Shown one piece after another: positions 23,665 to 58,936 of a DNA stretch of 64,000 bases (position 1 is the stretch's first letter; every line of letters begins with the position of its first letter). The stretch lies in contig NZ_JAFQ01000004.1 in NCBI RefSeq assembly GCF_000526215.1, positions 1,922,001 through 1,986,000 of the forward strand, given 5' to 3'. The notes beneath the pieces are model-generated. The model was not told the origin of the DNA. It searched no databases and worked only from the letters and a program-made list of their open reading frames with translations. The DNA is from Nocardia sp. BMG51109 (GTDB lineage: Bacteria > Actinomycetota > Actinomycetes > Mycobacteriales > Mycobacteriaceae). The position numbers and the translations under genes were made by a program.

Positions 23665-25394
23665 CGCACCTCCTCCGCACTGATCTGGGACTCCACGATC
23701 TCGCGGTACTCCGCGCAGTCGCGCAGCAGCCGGTCGTGCGTGCCGGTGCCGGCCATCGCGCCGTCCTCCAGCACCACGATCCGGTCGGCGTCGCGCACGG
23801 TCGAGATCCGCTGTGCCACCGTGATGACCGCGGCATCGGTGATCTCCGACCGCAGGGCCTCCCGGACCCGGGCGTCGGTGGCCACGTCCAGCGCGGAGAA
23901 GCAATCGTCGAACAGGTAGATCCTGGGGCGCTTCACCAGCGCGCGGGCGATCGCCAGCCGCTGGCGCTGACCGCCGGATACCGTCGTACCGCCCTGTGCG
24001 ACAGGGGTTTCCAACCCCTGGGGCATATCCCGGACGAAATCGGCGGCCTGCGCGATCTCCAGGGCACGCCACAGCTGCTCATCGGTGGCCTCCGGATCGC
24101 CGTAGCGCAGATTGGACGCGACGGTGCCGGAGAACAGGTACGCCTTCTGCGGCACCAGGCCGATCTGCGAGCGCAGCAGATCCAGATCGACGTGGCGCAC
24201 GTTGGTGCCGCCCACCTTCACCGCGCCGTCGGTCACGTCGATCAGGCGCGGAATCAGATTGAGCAGCGTGGTCTTCCCCGCACCGGTGGAACCCACGACG
24301 GCGACGGTCTCCCCCGGCTGCACCGCGAACTGGATGGCCCGCAGCACCGGCTTCTCCGCGCCGGGAAACTTGAACTCGGCGGCGGCCAGCTCCACCGAAC
24401 CCGGATCGGACTCGAACGGCTGCGGCAGGGGCGGCTGGGTCACCGACGACTCGGTCTCCAGCACCTCGGCGATGCGCTCGGCCGACACCGCCGCGCGCGG
24501 CGCCATCATGGCCAGGAACGAGGCCATCATGACCGCCATCAGGATCTGCATGATGTAGGAGAGCATCGCGGTCAGCGAGCCGACCTGCATCTCCCCCTCG
24601 TTGATCGCGTGCCCGCCGAACCAGATCACCGCCACGGTGGTGAGGTTGCTGATCAGCATCACCGCCGGGAACATCAGCGCCATCAGCCGGCCGACGTACA
24701 GCGAGACGTCGGTCAGCTCGGAGTTGGCGACGCCGAAGCGCCAGGTCTCCTGCCGCTCGCGCACGAAGGCCCGGACCACCCGGATGCCGGTGATCTGCTC
24801 GCGCAGCACCCGGTTCACCGCATCGATGCGCTCCTGCATGCGCCGGAAGCCGGGCACCATCCGGGAGATGATCACCGCCATGGTCAGCGCCAGCGCCGGC
24901 ACCGCGATCAGCAGCAGCCAGGACAGGCCCAGGTCCTGGCGCACCGCCATGATGATGCCGCCGACGCACATGATCGGCGCCATTACCAGGATGGTCGCGC
25001 TCATCACGATCAGCAGCTGCACCTGCTGTACGTCGTTGGTGTTGCGGGTGATCAGCGACGGCGCGCCGAACAGGCCCACCTCGCGCGCGGAGAAACCGCC
25101 GACCCGGTGCAGCAGCGCGGCGCGGATATCGCGGCCCGCGCCCATCGCCGCCTGCGCCCCGAGATACACCGAGCACGCCGAGGCCAGGATCTGCACGCCG
25201 CTGACCGCCAGCATCCACAATCCGGTGTTCCAGATGTAGCCGACATCGCCCTTGGTGACGCCGTTGTCGATGATGTCGGCGTTCAGGCTGGGCAGGTACA
25301 GCATCGCGATGACCGAGACCAGTTGCAGCGCGACGACCCCGGCCAGCTGGGTGCGGTAGGGGCTCATGAAGCTGCGCAGCAGTCTGATCAACAT
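23661..25394 (-). CDS. ABC exporter half-transporter, first subunit
   Basis: The 577-residue protein has six membrane helices in residues 1-310 and an ATPase domain with Walker A GSTGAGKTTL, signature GGTTVSGGQRQRL and, in place of the usual Walker B with DE, IYLFDDCFSALD. A Glu-to-Asp change after the Walker B Asp (DD rather than DE) suggests one degenerate site, as in many heterodimeric exporters. It overlaps the next gene by four bases (GTGA), so both are one operon. The promoter lies in 25395-25472. Confidence 0.88.
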   Translation of the reverse strand: MLIRLLRSFMSPYRTQLAGVVALQLVSVIAMLYLPSLNADIIDNGVTKGDVGYIWNTGLWMLAVSGVQILASACSVYLGAQAAMGAGRDIRAALLHRVGGFSAREVGLFGAPSLITRNTNDVQQVQLLIVMSATILVMAPIMCVGGIIMAVRQDLGLSWLLLIAVPALALTMAVIISRMVPGFRRMQERIDAVNRVLREQITGIRVVRAFVRERQETWRFGVANSELTDVSLYVGRLMALMFPAVMLISNLTTVAVIWFGGHAINEGEMQVGSLTAMLSYIMQILMAVMMASFLAMMAPRAAVSAERIAEVLETESSVTQPPLPQPFESDPGSVELAAAEFKFPGAEKPVLRAIQFAVQPGETVAVVGSTGAGKTTLLNLIPRLIDVTDGAVKVGGTNVRHVDLDLLRSQIGLVPQKAYLFSGTVASNLRYGDPEATDEQLWRALEIAQAADFVRDMPQGLETPVAQGGTTVSGGQRQRLAIARALVKRPRIYLFDDCFSALDVATDARVREALRSEITDAAVITVAQRISTVRDADRIVVLEDGAMAGTGTHDRLLRDCAEYREIVESQISAEEVR

Positions 25395-33867: not shown

Positions 33868-33893
33868 TGGCGGTGGCGGAGGGATTCGAACCC
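33868..33893 (-). repeat. Left attachment site core (tRNA-Ser 3' end copy)
   Basis: The 26 bases here are identical to 58846-58871 and correspond to the CCA end, acceptor 3' strand and T-loop of tRNA-Ser(CGA). The sequence beyond (from 33894) does not continue the tRNA, so this is an attachment core rather than a gene. Confidence 0.9.
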
Positions 33894-34787: not shown

Positions 34788-35574
34788 GGTTCGCGCGTGA
34801 GTACATGCTCCAGAACGTGGAATCCGTGATCGGCGAAGCGGTTTCCCACACTCGTTCGAAGCTTCGGACATACATGTCGAAGAAGTCGCCGCCCTGGATT
34901 CGGCGCAGGTGCAGGATCGGGGCCATGTACCCGTAGGTGCCGTAGACGTGCTGATTGATCAACATCTGATCGTCGTATCGGAAGATCGAGTTGTAGAGGC
35001 ACGTGCGGTGCAGCAGGAACTCGACGCCGGGGACCCCGACAAGGGGGCTGTAGTAGGTGAGGGCCATGCGAATCCGCGCGGGTATCGCTTCGTAGAGCCT
35101 CTCCTCCTCGCCTCGCAGATCCATTTCAGGCGAGTCCGGATCCCCGAGCAGAATGCGCACACGAACGCCTTTCTCGGCCTTGCGCCGAATCAGTTCGATC
35201 GACTCGGGGTTCTGCTCTGGCAGGAACAGGCTGGCGTTCGCAAACAGCCACAGCTCGGATTCAGTGCCCGACAACAGATCCAGCCACAAGCGGCGAGGTG
35301 TGTCAGAGCGATGCGGGTAGACGTCGACGATCTCCTGTTGCGCGGCCTGGCTTGGTGACGTACCCAGCTCCGGCCACAGGAACCCGACCGTAACTCCGAG
35401 TAGCTCAGCGGCCTTATGGGCAGCTCCGCGCCGCGGAACAACACCTTTGGTGACCCAGCGGTGGACGCTCTTCGGGTCGAGGCCAACATGCCCGGCCAGT
35501 GCCTCGGTCGTGACACCGGCGTCTGCGATGGCAGCGCGAAGACGTTCGTTCGGAGCCGACTGCAACGACATCAT
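34765..35574 (-). CDS. XRE regulator with C-terminal DUF5919 (PLD-like) domain
   Basis: The 269-residue protein has a helix-turn-helix at residues 10-65 (RLRAAIADAGVTTEALAGHV, then GLDPKSVHRWVTKGVVP) and a DUF5919 domain from about residue 95, with similarity to the phospholipase D fold (ELWLFANASLFLPEQN; VRVRILLGDPDSPE; INQHVYGTYGYMAPILHL). The HKD motif is not complete, so the domain probably binds rather than cleaves. Such regulators occur repeatedly in actinobacteria next to accessory genes. Four half-sites just upstream (35583-35630) look like its own operator. Confidence 0.82.
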   Translation of the reverse strand: MMSLQSAPNERLRAAIADAGVTTEALAGHVGLDPKSVHRWVTKGVVPRRGAAHKAAELLGVTVGFLWPELGTSPSQAAQQEIVDVYPHRSDTPRRLWLDLLSGTESELWLFANASLFLPEQNPESIELIRRKAEKGVRVRILLGDPDSPEMDLRGEEERLYEAIPARIRMALTYYSPLVGVPGVEFLLHRTCLYNSIFRYDDQMLINQHVYGTYGYMAPILHLRRIQGGDFFDMYVRSFERVWETASPITDSTFWSMYSRANLKPPVSA

Positions 35575-38399: not shown

Positions 38400-39209
38400 T
38401 CATCGGCTAACTCCGGACATGCGAAAACCGCCCCAGTCCTTGTGGGACCGGGGCGGTTTCGTTGCGTCGCGCGCACGGCGCGGGCGAGATTTCACCACCG
38501 CGACCTTGCGCTCGTACGCCCACGCGCCCTCGGGCTTGTAACCGCCGCCGGACGGCAGCACCACAGCGCCGGTCTCCGGGTCCGACGTCGGTGAGGCGGA
38601 GCTGGTCGCTTCCGCCACCGGTGCCGCGTTGTTGGTGTGGCTGGTCTGCGCCACGTACTCCACAGCGTCCGAGCCGGTGCGACGCACCGACACGAGATCG
38701 CGGATGGTCAGTTCCTTGCGGCCCAGCGGCTCGACGATGCCGGACTGCTCGTTGACCACGAACGCGCCGGCCGAAGTGTCCGAGCCGCCCACGAACAGGC
38801 CCTTGACGGCGATCGGGTCGGTCTGGAACCGCGACCGCTCGGGCACGTACCCGCCCTTGTACGGCGCGAGGGCGTTCTTGAACTCGATCGAGTCGACGAC
38901 CTGCAGGCCGAGGGACTTCACGCGCTCCCGGACCGGCGGGCGGCCCTGCGCGTCGACGTCGTCGACGGCGGGCTCCCCGATCTCCTGGGCCAGGCTCTTG
39001 GCCTCGTCGAGGATCTCCAGATCGCGCTTGGCGACCTTGATCTGCTCCAGCAGCTCGCCGCCCTTGGCCATCGCCTCGGTGTAGGTGCCCTGCTCGTCGG
39101 CGGTCATCTCCCGCGACTCGCTCTGCGCCTTCTCGGCGACCTCGCGAGCGCGGGTCACCTGCTCCTGCGCTGCCTTCTGCAGCTCGCCGAGCTTGGTCTT
39201 GGTCATCAT
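38400..39209 (-). CDS. HK97-type major capsid protein, C-terminally truncated
   Basis: The 269-residue frame has an N-terminal delta/scaffold-like coiled coil (residues 1-100, rich in AREVAEKAQSESRE) and the start of an HK97-fold capsid (about 110-240): VKGLFVGGSDTSAGAFV, LTIRDLVSVRRTGSDAVEYV and PEGAWAYERKVAVVK. Normally this family continues for another 150 or so residues (A and P domains). Here the match ends at AVVK, and about 30 unrelated residues (SRPRRARDATKPP) run through a terminator hairpin. The gene is broken and cannot encode a complete capsid. Confidence 0.8.
   Translation of the reverse strand: MMTKTKLGELQKAAQEQVTRAREVAEKAQSESREMTADEQGTYTEAMAKGGELLEQIKVAKRDLEILDEAKSLAQEIGEPAVDDVDAQGRPPVRERVKSLGLQVVDSIEFKNALAPYKGGYVPERSRFQTDPIAVKGLFVGGSDTSAGAFVVNEQSGIVEPLGRKELTIRDLVSVRRTGSDAVEYVAQTSHTNNAAPVAEATSSASPTSDPETGAVVLPSGGGYKPEGAWAYERKVAVVKSRPRRARDATKPPRSHKDWGGFRMSGVSR
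38422..38461. terminator. Terminator hairpin inside the 3' end of the capsid frame
   Basis: CGAAAACCGCCCCAGTCC and GGGACCGGGGCGGTTTCG form a strong stem with a TTGT loop, followed in either direction by T/A-rich ends. It can stop both the rightward accessory genes and the leftward head genes. It lies within the last codons of the truncated capsid frame. Confidence 0.75.
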
Positions 39210-44345: not shown

Positions 44346-44582
44346 ATGATCAGCGCAAATAAGTCGATCAACGATAAATTCGGATGTGCGCGGGAGTTGA
44401 CTGAGCGGATCCGTTACACGAGAGCTGACGCCGCGCAGATGCTTTCGATTTCCCTGCGGCAACTGGACCGGCTCCGGACCGACGGCAAGATCATCGGCCG
44501 CGTCGACGGCAAGCGCACCTACTTCGACCACGACGAGCTGGTGTCCTACGCCAAGTCGTGTGCACCAGAAGGAGCGGCATGA
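44346..44582 (+). CDS. Excisionase-like/MerR-type HTH protein (1 of 3)
   Basis: The 78-residue protein has a MerR-type helix-turn-helix: IRYTRADAAQMLSISLRQLDRLRTDGKII, then RTYFDHDELVSYAKS. It is the first of three short DNA-binding genes read rightwards from a divergent promoter with the head module. Its stop overlaps the next start by four bases (ATGA). Such proteins include excisionases and late-gene activators. Confidence 0.7.
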   Translation: MISANKSINDKFGCARELTERIRYTRADAAQMLSISLRQLDRLRTDGKIIGRVDGKRTYFDHDELVSYAKSCAPEGAA

Positions 44583-44830
44583 CTACCGAATTCGCACCGC
44601 AGCAGATCTCCTACAACATCCGCCAAGCCCATCAGGTAACCGGCATCGGGGAGTCCACCCTCCGCAGGCTCGTCCGCCAGGGCCTCTTGGCTGCGCGGTA
44701 CCTCAACTCGACGATCCTCATCGACGCCGAAGACTTGGAGCGCTTCAGCCGATCCCTGCCGAGCGAGAAGCAGGTGCTGCGAGACGTTGCGGCTAACCGG
44801 AGTCTGTGCCAATGCCACTCGACGATCTGA
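44579..44830 (+). CDS. Excisionase-like HTH protein (2 of 3)
   Basis: The 83-residue protein contains NIRQAHQVTGIGESTLRRLVRQGLLAARYLNSTILIDAEDLERF, shown in parts here (ESTLRRLVRQGLLAARYL), which is the helix-turn-helix and wing of excisionase-like proteins. The following gene starts 18 bases before its stop. It would act in recombination or transcription. Confidence 0.65.
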   Translation: MTTEFAPQQISYNIRQAHQVTGIGESTLRRLVRQGLLAARYLNSTILIDAEDLERFSRSLPSEKQVLRDVAANRSLCQCHSTI

Positions 44831-45072
44831 GGCTGTACAGCCTCGCCGAAAGCGCCGAGCGCCTTCGGGTCACCGAGGACTGGTTGCTGAAACGGTTGCG
44901 GGGCCGGCAGATCTCCGGCCACAAGTCCGGCCGCACCTGGACGATGTCGGCAGGAGATATCCGGGCGGCCATCGAGTTCATGGCCATCCCAGCGATCGTC
45001 CCGAAGCCTGATCCGCACGGGCTATCGCCGCGTAGTCGGCGGTACCTTCAGCGCCGGGGTGGCGCTCGGTGA
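44812..45072 (+). CDS. Excisionase-like HTH protein (3 of 3)
   Basis: The 86-residue protein (ATG 44812; GTG 44806 possible) shows LYSLAESAERLRVTEDWLLKRLRGRQISGHKSGRTWTMSAGDIRAAIEF in parts (WLLKRLRGRQ; RTWTMSAGDI). The ending GLSPRSRRYLQRR is also found, in altered form, in the 53398-53682 protein, so these two are paralogues within the element. Confidence 0.65.
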   Translation: MPLDDLRLYSLAESAERLRVTEDWLLKRLRGRQISGHKSGRTWTMSAGDIRAAIEFMAIPAIVPKPDPHGLSPRSRRYLQRRGGAR

Positions 45073-45145
45073 GCGTCGAACTGGGGATGATCGCGAAGGC
45101 ATTGAGCTGTCCTATGCGAGACCTCGTGCCGGACGAGGTCGCGGC

Positions 45146-45361
45146 ATGAACCCAAGTCTGAAATACACCGAATCCCAAGTGGCCCAGATGCTTACGTCGT
45201 CGGAGCCCTCCGCATTGCGGGAGCAGTACGAGTCCGACAAGCGCGAGTGGATCGCGCGTCAGCTGGAGAACTGCCCGCCACTGTCAGAGCGGCAGAAGGC
45301 GGTCATCCGGACGGCGTTCGCAGCGCATCGTGCCGGGCAGGTCCCATCGGGAGCGGCATGA
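45146..45361 (+). CDS. Small phage protein, unknown function
   Basis: The 71-residue protein (ATG 45146) is helical: KYTESQVAQMLTSSEPSALR, then EWIARQLENCPPLSERQKAV and IRTAFAAHRAG. It has no named domain and is cotranscribed with the three HTH genes. A longer in-frame start at 45059 would overlap the preceding gene. Confidence 0.5.
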   Translation: MNPSLKYTESQVAQMLTSSEPSALREQYESDKREWIARQLENCPPLSERQKAVIRTAFAAHRAGQVPSGAA

Positions 45362-45611: not shown

Positions 45612-46064
45612 TTAGAGCTGTTCGAGTCTCGGGTGATCGCCGCCGTGAGCGCGCCATACTGTTGGTTTGCCTGCGGAGCTGTGGGTGCAGATGTCTCGCA
45701 AGAGCGCGTGGAGGGTGCGGACCAGTTCGTCGCGATTGGCGTTGCCGTCGAACAGGAACATGTGGATCTTCGCCGCCTTGTAGGCGGCCAGTTCGTCCGG
45801 TTCGGACAGAATCGTCGTATCACGGCCGATGGCCACCCATCCGTGCTTGCCGACATCACGCAGCCACACCTCGTCCAGGGTGCCTTGGGCCTTGGCGCGG
45901 CTGCCGTAGAGCCTGGCGGGGGTGTGGACGCAGTACCCGAGATCTTCGATCGCGCGTCGCAGGGTCCGGCCGGCGAAGTTCTCGTCGATGTAGAACTCAG
46001 GCGGCGCGGCCCAGGAGGATGCGTGCGGCGGTCCTGACATCTTCGGTCGAGATTCCGAACTCAT
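45612..46064 (-). CDS. PIN-like toxin of second DUF433 module
   Basis: The 150-residue protein begins, after an unstructured lead, with PEFYIDENFAGRTLRRAIED, the Asp-Glu-Asn signature of PIN-like (VapC45-type) proteins, followed by LDEVWLRDVGKHGWVAIGRDTTI, which supplies acidic residues of the catalytic site. A later segment, AKIHMFLFDGN, is a core strand. Ribonuclease toxicity is inferred. The start overlaps the antitoxin end by 68 bases; ATG 46040 is an alternative. Confidence 0.75.
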   Translation of the reverse strand: MSSESRPKMSGPPHASSWAAPPEFYIDENFAGRTLRRAIEDLGYCVHTPARLYGSRAKAQGTLDEVWLRDVGKHGWVAIGRDTTILSEPDELAAYKAAKIHMFLFDGNANRDELVRTLHALLRDICTHSSAGKPTVWRAHGGDHPRLEQL

Positions 46065-46668
46065 CCCCCACCACTTCAGCTGTCTCGCCCGACTTCAGCA
46101 TCGCCGCGACATCGGCCACGCGGGGGCCGGAATCGCCGAAACGTGGCTGGCCGAACGCGATACGCGGATTCACAACGATCTTGGATGGCTCCCAGCGAAG
46201 CTGCAGCTGCGTCGGCAGTTGGTCCTCGCCCCAGGTCACGTATTGCAGGTAGTCGGAGACGATCTCCCGGAAGACGTGCTGGCCGCTGCTGTCGATGAGA
46301 TCGGAGCCCTCGTGGGTGCGGGCGAAGTCCCACAGCACGCTGACCCCGTCGGTGGCCAGGTTCGGCGAGACGAGGGCGTATTCGGTGCCGAAGCGGCGCT
46401 GTAGCTCGGTGAGCGCGGGCCGGATCTTGTGCAGGCGCACCCCGGCGGCTCGTAGCGCGTTGAGCACGAATGCTTCGGTCAGCCCGATGAACGGCACGCT
46501 TGCCTTGCGCAACGGAGCCTCACGAACGTGGATGAGCGAGTCCCCGCGGTCGCCGGGTTTTGTCCAACGGCCAAGCGTGGTCGCACTGATGCCGAGGTAG
46601 CGGGCGCTGTCTGCGACATTCAGAATCCGGAGGGAGAATCGCACGTCGTTGTCGCGGATGTCCGTCAA
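45997..46668 (-). CDS. MerR-like/DUF433 antitoxin of second module
   Basis: The 223-residue protein starts at TTG 46668, with GGAGG seven bases upstream; GTG 46710 would give a longer form. Residues 10-60 are a MerR-like HTH (LNVADSARYLGISATTLGRW), and the C-terminal part has DUF433 (GDSGPRVADVAAMLKSGETAEVVGDEFGISTEDV). It precedes the toxin on the same strand. It would protect the element from loss and repress its own operon. Confidence 0.75.
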   Translation of the reverse strand: MTDIRDNDVRFSLRILNVADSARYLGISATTLGRWTKPGDRGDSLIHVREAPLRKASVPFIGLTEAFVLNALRAAGVRLHKIRPALTELQRRFGTEYALVSPNLATDGVSVLWDFARTHEGSDLIDSSGQHVFREIVSDYLQYVTWGEDQLPTQLQLRWEPSKIVVNPRIAFGQPRFGDSGPRVADVAAMLKSGETAEVVGDEFGISTEDVRTAARILLGRAA

Positions 46669-46896
46669 GGTCGCCTCCTCTCGCCTGGGCCCGTTTCCAG
46701 TCGGATACACGGTAGTCCGAACGGATCACGATCGGATCGCATTCGGCCCACGTCCGGAACATCCGCCGTGACCCGCGCAGCGTTACGCGGGTCACGGCGT
46801 GTCTTGTCCGCATCGTTTGCGGTTGCCCGCCGACAATGCAAGCACCAGTCGCATCAGACGCGGCTGATCGTCGTCAGTCATCGTTGTACCTCGGGG

Positions 46897-48268: not shown

Positions 48269-48471
48269 CCGGCTTGCGTGAGTTCGTCCAGCACGCCTTC
48301 AACGGCCGGATCTCTGCGTGCCGGTTCAGATTTCGCGCCGAAGTCCTGGTCGAGGTCCTTGAACACGTCGAGGTAGCCCGGCGGCCAGTACGGCTCATCC
48401 AGCCACTTCGGCTCAGGGATCTCCGCGAAGGTGTCGTCGTGCGATCCGGTGGTGTCCGGTTGATCGGTCAT
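48269..48471 (-). pseudogene. 5' part of probable frameshifted phage gene
   Basis: From ATG 48471 (overlapping the end of the ATPase gene as ATGA) the frame reads MTDQPDTTGSHDDTFAEIPE and continues coding-like to LDELTQAG near 48270. The nominal frame stays open to 48082, but after 48269 its sequence is a Ser/Thr/Pro-rich shadow of the gene at 47957. The whole 47957-48471 span is 515 bases, one short of a multiple of three, which supports a single missing base. Confidence 0.55.
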
Positions 48472-49775
48472 GCCGCACCTGCTTTCACACCGGCCTGCTC
48501 CAGGCGCATCCAATACCGTTCGTCGGCCAGCCATGGCAGCCGCTGGAAGTCGTGGCGCAGGTACGACGGCCACACCCGGTCTTCACGGCCACCGCGCCAT
48601 GCCACGATGTCCACCTTGCTCGGGTGTTCTTCCTCCTCGGTGCCCTGCGCCGGCCGGAGCCCCAGCCCGAATTCCGGCCACCGCAGGAACAGCGACGACC
48701 CGATCGGCTTGAGCGCCCGCGCTTCTCGCCCGCTGCCGTGCGCTACGTGCGCCTCGGCGACGAGCGCCAACCGGTACCTGACCCGCAATTCGTCGAGCCG
48801 GTCGGTGAGTTCCTTCGCGGCCTGCTCGTCGCGGGTATCCAAGGTGTGCATCCGGTACAACGGGCCCACGATCACCATGTCCGGGTCCGTAGCGCGGACC
48901 GCTCGCTCGACCTTCGCGAACTCGCGAGGATCGTTCAGGGCGACGCCCTCGGGCCGGAGGACGAACCGCAGCTGCTTCGACCAGTCGGGCACCTGGACAC
49001 CGGCGCGGCTGCAGCACTTCTCCACCATGCCGCGCATCCGCCGGTATCGCCGGGCCGTCTGCCGCTCGGAGTTCTCGCAGTCCACGACCAGCACGCGGCC
49101 CGGTTCCCCGCCGGGAAAACCGCCGAAGGGGTTCAAGCCCGAAGCGATGCACAATGCCACTTGAGCCAGCAGGTACGACTTCCCTGTGCCCTCGAAGCCG
49201 GTCAAGATCAGCCGATCTGTGCGCTCCAGCACCCCCGGAACCAGCCAGTCGTACTCCTCCGAGTAACCGAGCACGTCGGCCAGGCTGGGCGGCAGGTCGT
49301 CGTCGGTGATGACGCTCGACGTGTCCGCCCGGATGGCGTTCAGCTCCTCGATGGCTCGATCCACCCCGACCCGCAAGGTCTCGGCGTCGCCGCCGGTGAC
49401 GCTCTCCTCGGCGAACTGCCGCAGCCGGATTGCCGAGGTGTCGACGGCGCGTGCCTTGGCGAGCGTGTGCAGGCGCTCGACATGGAAACCGATCGCGGTC
49501 CCCGTCGTCTTGCCGAGTGATGAGATGACGAACGACTCGACCGCCTTGCCCTTGCCGATCCCCAAGCGGGCGATGGCACGCCGGGACACGGACAGGTGGT
49601 CCACCGGCTCTCCGTCGGCGACCAGGGCCCGGTAGATCGCGTGGAGTTCCTGATGCAGGCCCTGCACGAAAACTGCCGGCGGCAGTGCCACCACGGCCGG
49701 GAGCAGGTGCGGGTTGTCCAGCGGAGCGAGCACGACCAGGCGCTCGGCGCCGGAGTCGAACAGGTAGTCATCCAC
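48468..49775 (-). CDS. RecA-fold ATPase, RepA/DnaB-like replication protein
   Basis: The 435-residue protein starts at GTG 49775. N-terminal residues 1-150 are helical and DnaB-N-like (LHQELHAIYRALVADGEPVD). The ATPase core has Walker A LTGFEGTGKSYLL (about residue 192), the strand RVLVVDCENSE (Walker B) and DMVIVGPLYRMH. This layout matches AAA_25/RepA-type hexameric helicases of small phages and satellites. It is in the early operon next to the initiator gene and is likely the replicative helicase or its loader. Confidence 0.82.
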   Translation of the reverse strand: MDDYLFDSGAERLVVLAPLDNPHLLPAVVALPPAVFVQGLHQELHAIYRALVADGEPVDHLSVSRRAIARLGIGKGKAVESFVISSLGKTTGTAIGFHVERLHTLAKARAVDTSAIRLRQFAEESVTGGDAETLRVGVDRAIEELNAIRADTSSVITDDDLPPSLADVLGYSEEYDWLVPGVLERTDRLILTGFEGTGKSYLLAQVALCIASGLNPFGGFPGGEPGRVLVVDCENSERQTARRYRRMRGMVEKCCSRAGVQVPDWSKQLRFVLRPEGVALNDPREFAKVERAVRATDPDMVIVGPLYRMHTLDTRDEQAAKELTDRLDELRVRYRLALVAEAHVAHGSGREARALKPIGSSLFLRWPEFGLGLRPAQGTEEEEHPSKVDIVAWRGGREDRVWPSYLRHDFQRLPWLADERYWMRLEQAGVKAGAA

Positions 49776-50054
49776 AATCGGCCCTCCTGTCTGGGAACGG
49801 TACGACCGGCTTCCACCGGTCGGCGATCTGCTTCACGCGGGCGGCGATGAACATGCCGAGATAGGCCCTGGCTTCCCAGTACGCGCCGCAGCCGGGGAAA
49901 TCCGGGAGGTGGCCCACTCCTCGCCGCACTCGCGGCAGAAGCCGTTCTGCGGCACGTGGGTCTCGGCCACCACGAGGCCGATGTCCGCCCAGGCGGCTTC
50001 GTCGTCGGTCTCGGCTTCTCGGGCGATGATCGACGCCATGTCTCGGAGGCTCAC
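49768..50054 (-). pseudogene. Frameshifted small phage gene with zinc knuckle
   Basis: The frame from GTG 50054 (VSLRDMASIIAREAETDDEA) reads coding-like to NGFCRECGEEW, then shifts into a nonsense tail. In the next frame the expected sequence resumes, FPGCGAYWEARAYLGMFIAA, and runs to a stop that overlaps the start of the ATPase gene. The site is a C-run at about 49907 (TCCCGG where TCCCCGG would restore the frame). Span length 287 is one short of a multiple of three. A sequencing error is possible. Confidence 0.65.
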
Positions 50055-50058
50055 CCGG

Positions 50059-50928
50059 TCACCACCTTGGCTCTACGAGGTTGCCGGTTCTGGGATCGGC
50101 CATCGGTGCTGCCGAAGGTTCCCGACCGTGGGCAGGCTTGAGGCCGAACTCGACGGCCTTGCGCAACCAGTTCCGGAATGCGAAATTCCAGTCCCGATAC
50201 CTAATGTCCTTCGACCGAACATGGTCCTTGAACTTCTCCAACTCGGCTCTCGCCTGGGCTGTCGAGAGACCCAGCTCCTTGGCCAGGTTGTTGTGGCCCT
50301 CGTTCGGCTTCCAACTGTCGGGGAGGGAGGTCTCGGGCTTGCGTCGGGAGGTCTTGGGCTTGGTTCCGCGCTTCGTAGTTTTCGGGCGCGCTTCCCTAGA
50401 AGCTTCACCGGAAGCTTCATAGGAAGCTTTGTCGGCCACTGTGGCCGGGGTCGACCGGTCATCCTGGCCGGGGTTGACCGGCCACTGTGGCCGGGGTGAG
50501 GGGTCATCCTGGCCGGGGTGACCGGTCACAGTGACCAGGGTGAGCGGTCGTGGTGACCGGGGTGAGGGGTCGGAGTGACCGGGGTCGGGCGGTGTATCGA
50601 CCAACGTGTCGGTGTCCTCGGAGGATGCCGCCGGGACCGCGACCTGACCGACTGCGAGGTCCCAGACGACCGGCCGCTGCCCGGCGGGGAGGTGCTGGAC
50701 GAGGGATTGATCGCCCCTGCGGATCAGCCCCTGTTTCTCCAGGCCCTCCAGTGCCCGGCGGACAGTGCGCTCCGCGAACTCGCAGCGCTCCACGAGGGTG
50801 CTCTGCGATACGCGGACGCCGCGACCCTCCTCGTCTGCGATCTCGGCCATAACCAACAGGACGCACTTCTCGCTGCCGCCCTGTGTCTTCGCGGTTCTGG
50901 CCGCCCAGCGGCACGCCTGCCAGCTCAT
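50059..50928 (-). CDS. Replication initiator-like protein with HTH domain
   Basis: The 289-residue protein (ATG 50928 with AAGGAG; ATG 50988 is possible) has an N-terminal winged helix (residues 1-100: MSWQACRWAARTAKTQGGSE, then VSQSTLVERCEFAERTVRRALEGLEKQGLI), a Pro/Ser/Asp-rich linker (about 105-190), and a helical C-terminal domain (about 195-289: LAKELGLSTAQARAELEKFK; RDWNFAFRNWLRKAV). This matches phage O-type/DnaA-N-like initiators. The linker is encoded by the direct-repeat array at 50438-50592, as in lambda O, so the gene probably contains the origin. Confidence 0.78.
   Translation of the reverse strand: MSWQACRWAARTAKTQGGSEKCVLLVMAEIADEEGRGVRVSQSTLVERCEFAERTVRRALEGLEKQGLIRRGDQSLVQHLPAGQRPVVWDLAVGQVAVPAASSEDTDTLVDTPPDPGHSDPSPRSPRPLTLVTVTGHPGQDDPSPRPQWPVNPGQDDRSTPATVADKASYEASGEASREARPKTTKRGTKPKTSRRKPETSLPDSWKPNEGHNNLAKELGLSTAQARAELEKFKDHVRSKDIRYRDWNFAFRNWLRKAVEFGLKPAHGREPSAAPMADPRTGNLVEPRW
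50399..50429. repeat. Three 12-bp-spaced GAAGCTT repeats beside the iterons
   Basis: GAAGCTT occurs at 50399, 50411 and 50423, exactly 12 bases apart. It is less GC-rich than surrounding sequence and directly borders the iteron array. It could be part of a DNA-unwinding region; since 12 bases equals four codons, a protein-level repeat (EASG/EASR) is the simpler alternative. Confidence 0.5.
50438..50592. repeat. Seven iteron-like 22-23 bp direct repeats inside the initiator gene (candidate origin)
   Basis: The motif CCGGGGT (CCAGGGT once) recurs with its first base at 50445, 50468, 50491, 50513, 50535, 50557 and 50579, i.e. spaced 23, 23, 22, 22, 22 and 22 bases (about two helical turns). The surrounding bases are conserved too: TGGCCGGGGTGACCGGTC in the best copies. 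The period is not a multiple of three, so each copy is read in a different frame and the conservation is at DNA level. Adjacent are three GAAGCTT repeats at 12-base spacing. Confidence 0.8.
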
Positions 50929-56413: not shown

Positions 56414-57451
56414 TCACCTGCGGGTACCGCGCCTCTCGCCGAGTTCGGCCCGCGCGGCGTCCAGGTCACTCCGGAGTTCGGCACGGTCCCGGGCGGCGGC
56501 CTCACGTACAGCGGCGAGTTCAGCGGCGTACTGCTGCCGCATGTCGCGCACGTTCTGGTCGGCGGTGGCGTGCGCGGCGGCCATATCCTCCACCCGAGCG
56601 TCCTGTAGCTCCGCGACCCGCTCCTGATGCTGTGCGCGCTCGGCCTGCAGATCGTCGTGCAGCCGCCGGGCTTCGGCACCCTGCTCCTCCGCCGCTCGCG
56701 TCGCCTCGCCCTGCTGATGCCGCGGGACCGCTTCGGACCGGCGGGCGGCATCGACACGTTCCCGGGCCTGCAGCAGAGCGTCCTCGGCCTCCGCGTACAC
56801 CCGGGTCGTCTCCTCCTCTGCTTCCTGCTGAGTCTCGGTGATCTGCTGCTTGGCGTCGTCGACGATGCGGGTGGTGCGCTTCAACGTCTCGTCCCGCTCG
56901 TCGATAGCCTCCTCCGCCGCCGCGGCAGCGACCTCCTCCGCCGCGCGGGCGGCATCCCGTTCCCGCTCGGCCAGCCGGGCACGCCGTTCGGCCGCGTCGC
57001 GCGCCTCCTCCGCCTCTGCCACCTTCCGATCACACTCGCGCTGGATGTGCGCGATCTCCTCGGTCAGCGACGCCGGGTCGGCGACGGCCGCGACCACGTC
57101 GCCGGCGTCGTGAGCCACCGCCGTGAACCGTTCGGTCAGCTCACGCATCTCGGCCACCAGGTCGGCCAGGGTCGCGACCCGGTCGGTCACCGGCCGGGTG
57201 ATCGGGGCGGCCTCCCGCGCGGCGGCCTTCTCCGCCTTGCGGGCGATCTTGCGCCGCTCATCGAACGCGCGGCGCGCGGTGTGCGCCGGGTCGGCGCAGA
57301 ACAGGTTGGGAGCGCCGGGACCTTCCCGGCGTTCGACCGCCGCCCCGCACAGGCGATCCGCGCCCAGCGGAAACTGGCAGGTTCTCACCGGATTCGATTC
57401 ATTCGATCCGTTAGCGCTGGACGAATTGAATTCGACCACCGTGCCCATCAC
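56414..57451 (-). CDS. Coiled-coil protein cotranscribed with integrase
   Basis: The 345-residue protein (ATG 57451) has an N-terminal Cys-containing part (VRTCQFPLGADRLCGAAVER, NLFCADPAHTARRAF) that could bind zinc, and then about 250 residues of continuous coiled coil, rich in Ala, Glu, Arg (AEEARDAAERRARLAERERD). The layout recalls KfrA-like plasmid proteins. It overlaps the integrase stop by four bases (ATGA), so integrase and this protein form one operon. Function is unknown; a nucleoid- or segregation-related role is possible. Confidence 0.7.
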   Translation of the reverse strand: MMGTVVEFNSSSANGSNESNPVRTCQFPLGADRLCGAAVERREGPGAPNLFCADPAHTARRAFDERRKIARKAEKAAAREAAPITRPVTDRVATLADLVAEMRELTERFTAVAHDAGDVVAAVADPASLTEEIAHIQRECDRKVAEAEEARDAAERRARLAERERDAARAAEEVAAAAAEEAIDERDETLKRTTRIVDDAKQQITETQQEAEEETTRVYAEAEDALLQARERVDAARRSEAVPRHQQGEATRAAEEQGAEARRLHDDLQAERAQHQERVAELQDARVEDMAAAHATADQNVRDMRQQYAAELAAVREAAARDRAELRSDLDAARAELGERRGTRR

Positions 57452-58731
57452 CGGTCACCCCCGTTGCTGAAGAGTGGACGGAGCTGCTCGAATGCCGTGC
57501 GGGCTGTGCCGGTGTCCGCCGCAATGACCTCGTCGGCGGAAGGCGTGAGCGATCGCTCCGCCTGCTCCGAACGACGCGGTGATCGGACCGGCGCGGTGGT
57601 GCCGGGAACCCTGCGTCGGATCGCGGCAAGACCCTCGGCAGCGGCAGCGCCCGCGTTGCGGTCGAGGTGCCCATACCGATCGACCGTGGTCTTGATGGAC
57701 TCGTGGCCGAGGTGAGCCTGGATGAACGGCAGCGGGACGCCGGCGGCGATCATCCAGCTGGCGCAGGTGTGCCGCAGATCGTAGGACCGGGGCCGTTTCC
57801 CGTTCAGCTTGTCGACGACGACATTGCCGTCGGCGTCGATCTGGACGAGCTTGGCGATCGCCGGATTCCAGGCGCGTTTGCGGTAGTAGTCAGCGAGGAC
57901 CGGGCCGCCGTCGTAGGTCTGGAACAGCAGCTGATCGGACGGGCGATCGAGGTCGAGTAGTTCGATGGTTTCCGGCGGCAGGTTGATGGTGCGCACCGAC
58001 TTCTTCGTCTTCGGCGGGCCGACGACCCAGCCGTTGACGCGGGTCCGCTTCCACGCCTTGCTGATTCGGACGGTGCACTGGTCGCGGTTGATGTCGCCGA
58101 CAAGCACGGCCGCTGTCTCGTTGGGTCGTGCGCCCGAGGCAACCGCGAATTCGGTCTGCACGTACCAGCGGTCGGCCATGGTGTCGCGCACCAACGTGTA
58201 CTCCTCCAACTCAAGGAAGCACATTTCCGAGTTGTGCTGGGGCAGACGGATTCCGACGCACGGATTCGCGGTGATGATCTTCTCGTCGACCATCCAGGCC
58301 ATGGCTGCGGCGAGGAATCCGTGCTTGTTGGCGATCGTCTTGCCGGAGGCGCCGGCGGCCTCCATTCCGTTGACCCAGCGAGCGACGGTTACCCGGTCGA
58401 TGAACACGGCCGGCAGCGTGCCCATGAACGGCAGGATGTCGTTGCGACGATATCCGTGGTACTGGGCGCGGGTGGCAGTGGTGATGCCGGTGAGCTGGTC
58501 GATGTAGTCGGTGAGCGCCTTGTCGAGCAGCACCATGGTGGTGCCGGCGCTGCGTTCGGCGTCGAGGATCCTCAGCGCGGCGGCGGGGCCAACGCGATCG
58601 AGGATGTCGCGCCAGCGCAGCGCGGCGGCGTGGTCGTCGAAACTGACTGAGGACTGGGTGCCGTCGTGGCGGTAGAGGACCTGGGAGTACGAGCTGCCGT
58701 CGGCTCGTGTGCGGATGCGGATGCTGGACAA
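57448..58731 (-). CDS. int: Tyrosine integrase
   Basis: The 427-residue integrase has an N-terminal arm-binding part (MSSIRIRTRADGSSYSQVLY), a core-binding SAM-like domain (about residues 70-165) and a catalytic domain with the Arg in AVASGARPNETAAVL, the HxxR-type DLRHTCASW, and the last motif LGHESIKTTVDRYGHL, containing the His and the Tyr nucleophile. It lies 115 bases from the tRNA-Ser 3' end. It would recombine the 26-base core at tRNA-Ser. Confidence 0.93.
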   Translation of the reverse strand: MSSIRIRTRADGSSYSQVLYRHDGTQSSVSFDDHAAALRWRDILDRVGPAAALRILDAERSAGTTMVLLDKALTDYIDQLTGITTATRAQYHGYRRNDILPFMGTLPAVFIDRVTVARWVNGMEAAGASGKTIANKHGFLAAAMAWMVDEKIITANPCVGIRLPQHNSEMCFLELEEYTLVRDTMADRWYVQTEFAVASGARPNETAAVLVGDINRDQCTVRISKAWKRTRVNGWVVGPPKTKKSVRTINLPPETIELLDLDRPSDQLLFQTYDGGPVLADYYRKRAWNPAIAKLVQIDADGNVVVDKLNGKRPRSYDLRHTCASWMIAAGVPLPFIQAHLGHESIKTTVDRYGHLDRNAGAAAAEGLAAIRRRVPGTTAPVRSPRRSEQAERSLTPSADEVIAADTGTARTAFEQLRPLFSNGGDR

Positions 58732-58845: not shown

Positions 58846-58871
58846 TGGCGGTGGCGGAGGGATTCGAACCC
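58846..58871 (-). repeat. Right attachment site core
   Basis: These 26 bases, the tRNA-Ser(CGA) 3' end, are identical to 33868-33893. Sequence identity stops after the T-loop on the tRNA side, where the left copy continues differently. Confidence 0.9.
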
Positions 58872-58936
58872 TCGGAGGGGGGTTACCCCTCACACGCTTT
58901 CGAGGCGTGCTCCTTAGGCCGCTCGGACACGCCACC
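58846..58936 (-). tRNA. tRNA-Ser (anticodon CGA), integration target
   Basis: On the minus strand the acceptor stem GGTGGCG pairs with CGCCACC before G-CCA. The anticodon loop reads CTCGAAA (anticodon CGA, codon UCG), the variable arm is long, and the T-loop is GGTTCGAATCC. The CCA end is encoded. The last 26 bases (58846-58871) are duplicated at 33868, showing that the element restores an intact tRNA upon integration. Confidence 0.95.

Follow-up and report, generated by a model that had tools for sequence, protein, structure and literature searches.

Inverted repeats within the initiator gene of an integrated Nocardia phage element probably mark a lambda-type intragenic replication origin

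Can the gene of a replication initiator carry, inside its own reading frame, the origin of the element to which it belongs? This question is raised by a 64,000-nucleotide stretch of the Nocardia sp. BMG51109 genome, hereafter "the window", in which an initiator-type gene of an integrated phage element contains an array of short inverted repeats bordered by an AT-rich segment. We consider it very probable that array and flank together constitute a lambda-type intragenic replication origin of this element. Such a reading is supported by the family of the initiator, the position of the dyads in a linker modelled as disordered, the AT-rich 3′ flank, the helicase gene downstream and the arrays detected in relatives; from these features of the sequence, we infer origin activity at the array.

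According to family matches, the element encodes a terminase, a portal protein, a protease, a truncated capsid protein, the initiator and a helicase. Its tyrosine integrase gene (57448..58731, minus strand; phrog_1 E 2e-59, PF00589) adjoins a predicted tRNA-Ser gene (58846-58936), and the last 26 bp at the 3′ side of the tRNA gene (58846-58871) recur as an identical copy at 33868..33893 (strand unassigned), a candidate outer att site. The two copies form a candidate att pair that would mark the boundary of the element, which thus perhaps spans about 25 kb. The DnaB-like/AAA_25 helicase gene (48468..49775, minus strand; phrog_19 E 8e-17, PF13481 E 2e-32) lies downstream of the initiator gene, with a small ORF of 73 aa and no family match (49833..50054, minus strand) in the interval between them. 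The same initiator is present on a 21.7-kb viral contig of IMG/VR (L024), and Rfam gave nothing at the gathering threshold across 33000-60000. Two further features were observed in the element: a cluster of plus-strand small ORFs (44346-45361) within the mostly minus-strand phage module, three of them HTH/excisionase-like (phrog_33884, phrog_66 and phrog_1840), and a minus-strand ORF with HTH_66 and DUF433 domains (45612-46710) overlapping a 150-aa ORF, an organization that recalls toxin-antitoxin modules.

The capsid ORF (38400-39209, minus strand) matches a major head protein family over profile positions 260-433 of 752 only and then ends, and no tail family was matched among the 20 element ORFs scanned, 33.9-38.4 kb lying outside the scan. 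Taken together, these results suggest that the prophage is defective or that other DNA adjoins it at about 38.4 kb; overall, the element resembles a prophage whose capsid gene is truncated. The combination that characterizes capsid-forming phage satellites, complete capsid genes without tail genes, was not found in the 20 ORFs. Thus, the term "satellite" used in the preliminary description of this DNA is not established, given a capsid ORF covering so small a part of its profile, and we describe the element as prophage-like. The truncated capsid ORF and the lack of a tail match also bring in an alternative, namely that the array is what remains of a former origin in a prophage now defective and immobile. 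We regard this as possible but rather unlikely; the array keeps seven copies, the initiator, helicase and integrase frames are all open, and truncation of a structural gene is no proof of lost replication. Even if true, it would be compatible with reading the array itself as an origin.

The initiator-type gene occupies 50059..50928 on the minus strand (ATG 50926-50928, stop 50059-50061) and codes for 289 aa with a winged helix, a linker and a C-terminal domain. Most of the protein (residues 2-264 of the 290 translated) is covered by a match of 98.9 bits to PHROG 1032 "replication initiation protein", the single match to this family in the source genome, and "replication initiation O-like" PHROG families match it more weakly. 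Among Pfam models, HTH_36 (PF13730, E 5e-9) was found at the N-terminus and a weak DnaT match (PF17948, E 0.002), under the family cut-off, at the C-terminus, while DeoR- and MarR-type models are also included among the matches. The closest named homologue is the N. farcinica protein P0003, with 63% identity across 87% of the query. An AlphaFold2 model built with eight sequences (mean pLDDT 68, pTM 0.36) gave confident N- and C-terminal regions, and linker residues 99-190 were mostly below pLDDT 50, at about 40; the linker coded by the array is thus modelled as disordered. Searching with Foldseek returned weak generic winged-helix matches (best E 0.016), and a search by sequence for a relative of solved structure found none. 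As predicted from Pfam and the model, the protein has the layout of a lambda-type initiator: a DNA-binding domain at the N-terminus and a further domain at the C-terminus, joined by a flexible linker that the putative ori encodes.

The array consists of seven 13-bp inverted repeats (dyads) of the form GGYCANNNTGRCC, at 50434..50580 on the minus strand, which we propose as initiator-binding iterons. They start at 50434, 50457, 50480, 50502, 50524, 50546 and 50568, i.e. 22-23 bp apart, and motif search gave the same spacings. Five of the seven fit GGYCANNNTGRCC exactly; those at 50546 and 50568, nearest the N-terminal end, carry one mismatch each in one arm, and the sole further exact match in the 64-kb window is at 24522. 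Tandem Repeats Finder reported period 44 at 50433-50593 and period 22 at 50441-50593, a repeat search found six 48-nt copies spaced by 22, 23, 22, 22 and 22, and self-identity of the array at lag 22 was 0.63. The dyad symmetry of the motif had a p of 0.003 by column permutation. Direct repeats of 22-23 bp period within the linker, described earlier for residues 113-163, are therefore confirmed, with seven dyads coding residues 117-165 (ATG at 50928); that each repeat is itself an inverted repeat is a refinement of the earlier description. The dyads occupy all three codon frames. When the open frame of 383 codons was subjected to 200 synonymous-codon shuffles leaving the peptide unchanged, none reached the observed self-alignment score of 62.5 (shuffle mean 13.2, maximum 24.5). 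Since no peptide-preserving shuffle reaches the score, the repetition resides in the DNA, and the earlier claim that it is kept as DNA and not as peptide stands.

Arrays were also looked for in relatives. Loci were gathered from 150 genomes of the genus, 148 again with alignment, 397 genomes of the order and 394 of the class, and also from viral contigs, genome contigs and seven of 99 matching phage records; for the genome contigs, a first scan yielded no loci and a second three distant ones, of which only L112 is among the final members. ORFs matching the N-terminal profile were present in 102 loci, and removal of redundancy left 75 members, the window's own among them. Among these 75, which are best hits rather than a random sample and include some short HTH proteins unlikely to be initiators, a DNA-level array of z at least 4 was found in 49. 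Of the 176 other ORFs with 200 codons or more at these loci, 6 had one. The score exceeded all 100 shuffles in 56 of the 75 members and in 9 of the 176 control ORFs, and a z of at least 4 combined with a lag of 20-25 or 42-48 bp was seen in 40 members as opposed to a single control ORF. The best 12 relatives by N-terminal profile score all had z of at least 5.9; the 13th, L007 from the same genus, had 1.4. Six of the seven phage records reached z of at least 4, and Bifidobacterium phage Bbif-1 had 3.7. In total, 26 of the 75 members fell below 4 and 19 below 3.4. Some of the latter are full-length (L092, L093, L095 and L116), with weak self-similarity within 900 bp (scores 9-13.5, without shuffle control), and the short L044, L047 and L098 have stronger repeats located outside the gene. 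Hence the sequences point to an intragenic array that is common in the family and not universal. The expectation of DNA-level repeats in relatives is borne out in 49 members, and the contrary case named in the preliminary description, a homologue with a linker and no array, does occur, 19 members having z below 3.4.

Spacings within the arrays were 22-24 bp in 117 instances, 25-30 bp in 13 and 31-35 bp in 29. In several members (L121, L080, L082, L101, L109, L011 and others) the first spacing of the array is often 31-35 bp and the subsequent ones 22-23 bp. The idea of strict helical-turn phasing was dropped, as resultant lengths were flat (0.50-0.57) whatever period was tried. Downstream of the relatives' genes, 7 of the ten ORFs scanned, which are long ORFs chosen out of 22 listed relatives, match helicase or primase-helicase families; those of L061, L132 and L133 do not.

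On the 3′ side, the array adjoins an AT-rich segment (50390..50433, minus strand) that we propose as a DNA unwinding element. It carries three copies of GAAGCTT, and their position beside the array at 12-base spacing agrees with what had been described: they lie at 50399, 50411 and 50423, the sole other copy in the window being at 34858, and Tandem Repeats Finder gave a period of 12 at 50399-50429. These 12-bp repeats are in codon register and may be under selection at the peptide level. Over 36 bp, the segment has a GC of 0.44 versus 0.67 for the open frame, a minimum equalled by another stretch closer to the 3′ end of the gene, so that the window gene is scored as "elsewhere" when the positions of the minima are counted; with 40-bp windows its minimum falls elsewhere in the gene. 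In 33 of the 49 members with an array, the 36-bp GC minimum is immediately 3′ of it; 3 members have the minimum immediately 5′, 2 within the array and 11 elsewhere. By a second definition the AT-rich segment is 3′ of the array in 35 of 49, versus about 6 expected by length. Compared with synonymous shuffles, the low GC of the segment is clear in L056, L004, L022 and L010, for each of which 0 of 100 shuffles are as low, and marginal in the window gene, L055 and L003, with 6, 13 and 9 of 100, respectively; 27 of the 49 members had at most 5 of 100 shuffles as low.

Abutting the last dyad is a GACAAA box (50428..50433, minus strand), which is read in two frames among relatives. In a set of ten relatives with the window included, the box is read as GAC.AAA in L024, L055, L056, L022, L011 and L010 and as CGA.CAA.A in L003 and L004; in L005 the second frame reads CTACAAA, and no match was obtained for L109. 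Reading of the same box in two frames indicates that it is the DNA, not the peptide, that is kept.

Could the array serve regulation rather than replication? The protein may repress its own gene or set copy number through an operator or titration site, with the true origin elsewhere in the element. Winged-helix proteins are frequently repressors, DeoR- and MarR-type models are among the Pfam matches of the initiator, and arrays by themselves indicate likely binding sites and not origin function. Yet 33 of 49 members have their AT-rich flank on the 3′ side of the array, which fits an origin better, as do the match to a replication-initiator family and the helicase genes found downstream, here and in 7 of the 10 relatives scanned; we therefore hold this alternative to be improbable, while noting that operator and origin roles can coexist in one array. 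The weakest alternative, a DNA repeat arising as a by-product of a repetitive, disordered Pro/Asp-rich linker under peptide-level selection, has the modelled disorder on its side and is hardly credible in view of a period of 22-23 that is no multiple of three and dyads in all three frames, a peptide-level repeat being ruled out by the loss of the signal in 200 of 200 synonymous shuffles together with GACAAA in two frames.

By column permutation, motifs are dyadic at p of at most 0.05 in 33 of 49 members, and several types of dyad exist: GGACA in L055, L056, L004 and L005, GGAAA in L003, GAAG..CTTC in L022 and L011, and a GGGACACCGGTGTC-type in L013. Over 56 members, motif similarity correlated with N-terminal similarity (Mantel r 0.27, partial 0.22, p 0.0005) and with C-terminal similarity (0.20, partial 0.12, p 0.0005), with relatedness lying outside the Mantel statistics and the motif-on-motif comparison depending on motif phase. 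In a phase-free check, each motif was scanned over the array of the other gene with synonymous-shuffle controls, and the similarity of arrays so measured gave, for the same number of members, a Mantel r of 0.28 with the N-terminus (partial 0.25 given the C-terminus, p 0.0005) and of 0.15 with the C-terminus (partial 0.07 given the N-terminus, p 0.014). The sequence comparison thus suggests that repeats significantly track the N-terminal domain more than the C-terminal one, with many clear exceptions. When pairs were ranked by N-terminal similarity, the top ten included only three with a cross-scan z of at least 3; one had 2.7 and six at most 1.3. Motif-finder error or mis-called weak arrays may explain part of these exceptions, and a fast change of specificity may be an alternative source.

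Conversely, L011, L022 and L109 share arrays (cross-scan z 3.3-3.8) though their C-terminal similarity is at most 0.07. P0007 is a natural chimera, with an N-terminus 97% identical to that of L011 and 40% to that of the window protein. Its C-terminus shares 70% identity with the window protein and, over 53 residues, 42% with L011; at the protein level, its linker peptides match those of L011. It was also observed that the recognition-helix residue preceding ERTVRR or DRTVR seems tied to the third base of the dyad half-site in the window gene, L003, L004, L055 and L056. A candidate rule, drawn from a handful of sequences, would couple Ala or Ser before ERTVRR with GGYCA half-sites and Thr with GGACA.

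How far does this arrangement resemble known systems? In the passages available from PMC6022878 and PMC7466680, ori-lambda is described as inverted-repeat iterons inside gene O adjoining an AT-rich tract, which sits to the right (3′) of the iterons (PMC6022878), and the O protein as a DNA-binding domain at the N-terminus joined by a flexible linker to a domain at the C-terminus that binds P. The lambda record has four 18-bp iterons with starts 20, 24 and 23 bp apart, and as a positive control gene O gave a score of 13.5 by the same statistic, above the null maximum of 11.5 (0 of 200 shuffles). The Nocardia gene is like lambda O in its DNA-binding N-terminus, linker and C-terminal domain, its intragenic dyadic iterons and its AT-rich tract on the 3′ side, a likeness by layout. 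Accordingly, the comparison with lambda O and its internal ori made in the preliminary description appears sound for the parts visible in the sequence, namely the intragenic repeats, dyads, AT-rich 3′ flank and domain layout. Unlike lambda with its four 18-bp iterons, the Nocardia array has seven dyads of 13 bp, spaced by 22-23 bp, and where lambda has its replication gene P, a DnaB-like helicase gene lies downstream. In the enterobacterial phage P22, genes 18 and 12 place an O-like initiator beside a phage-encoded DnaB-type helicase.

N-terminal homology connects the Nocardia protein with genes of actinobacterial phages, i.e. Gordonia Soos gp71, Arthrobacter Chickaboom gp45, Amelia gp44 and Eesa gp43 and a gene of Bifidobacterium PMBT6; all five contain intragenic DNA-level arrays (z at least 4 in 5 of 5), with repeat sequences that differ from the Nocardia array. 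The related phage genes are annotated as "helix-turn-helix" or "replication initiation", with no origin annotated within the stretches examined. For extrachromosomal mycobacteriophages, passages of PMC7157519 suggest that the origin may be just upstream of or within repA, in a lambda-like manner; this case is actinobacterial as well, but it concerns a different protein and plasmid-like prophages, the origin is a proposal, and the passages describe no array. A satellite with RepA iterons in a non-coding region is mentioned in part of PMC7145576. In the open-access literature, among the matches listed and subscription papers aside, we found no such origin for Nocardia elements and no account of intragenic origins as a general feature of actinobacterial phages. 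The lambda-type architecture itself was already known, and the Nocardia element adds an instance which, judging from its relatives, is apparently one of many in actinobacterial phages.

Initiation at the proposed lambda-type origin could proceed as follows. The winged-helix domain at the N-terminus, probably in dimeric form, would bind the seven dyadic iterons within the DNA that codes for the linker, and their spacing of about two helical turns would put the complexes on one face, leading to an O-some-like structure. The resulting strain may melt the abutting AT-rich segment with its GACAAA box and 12-bp repeats, upon which the opened strands would become available for loading of the C-terminal domain and the element's own DnaB-like helicase.

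Arrays of this kind offer a clear case of DNA-level selection that is visible through the reading frames within a gene. With DNA-level arrays in 49 of the 75 members sampled, it would become possible to locate the origin in such phages from the sequence, and natural pairs of initiator and iterons offer material for working out winged-helix recognition. Perhaps, and we lean towards this view with some reserve, actinobacterial phages and prophages share widespread and so far unrecognised portable cassettes composed of a DNA-binding domain plus its own origin, in which iterons and an AT-rich box in linker-coding DNA are kept through frame changes, and recombination within the linker or beyond it exchanges them along with the N-terminal domain. 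If this is true, the position of the origin would be predictable from sequence for many phages, and the specificity of their initiators would be readable from natural pairs.
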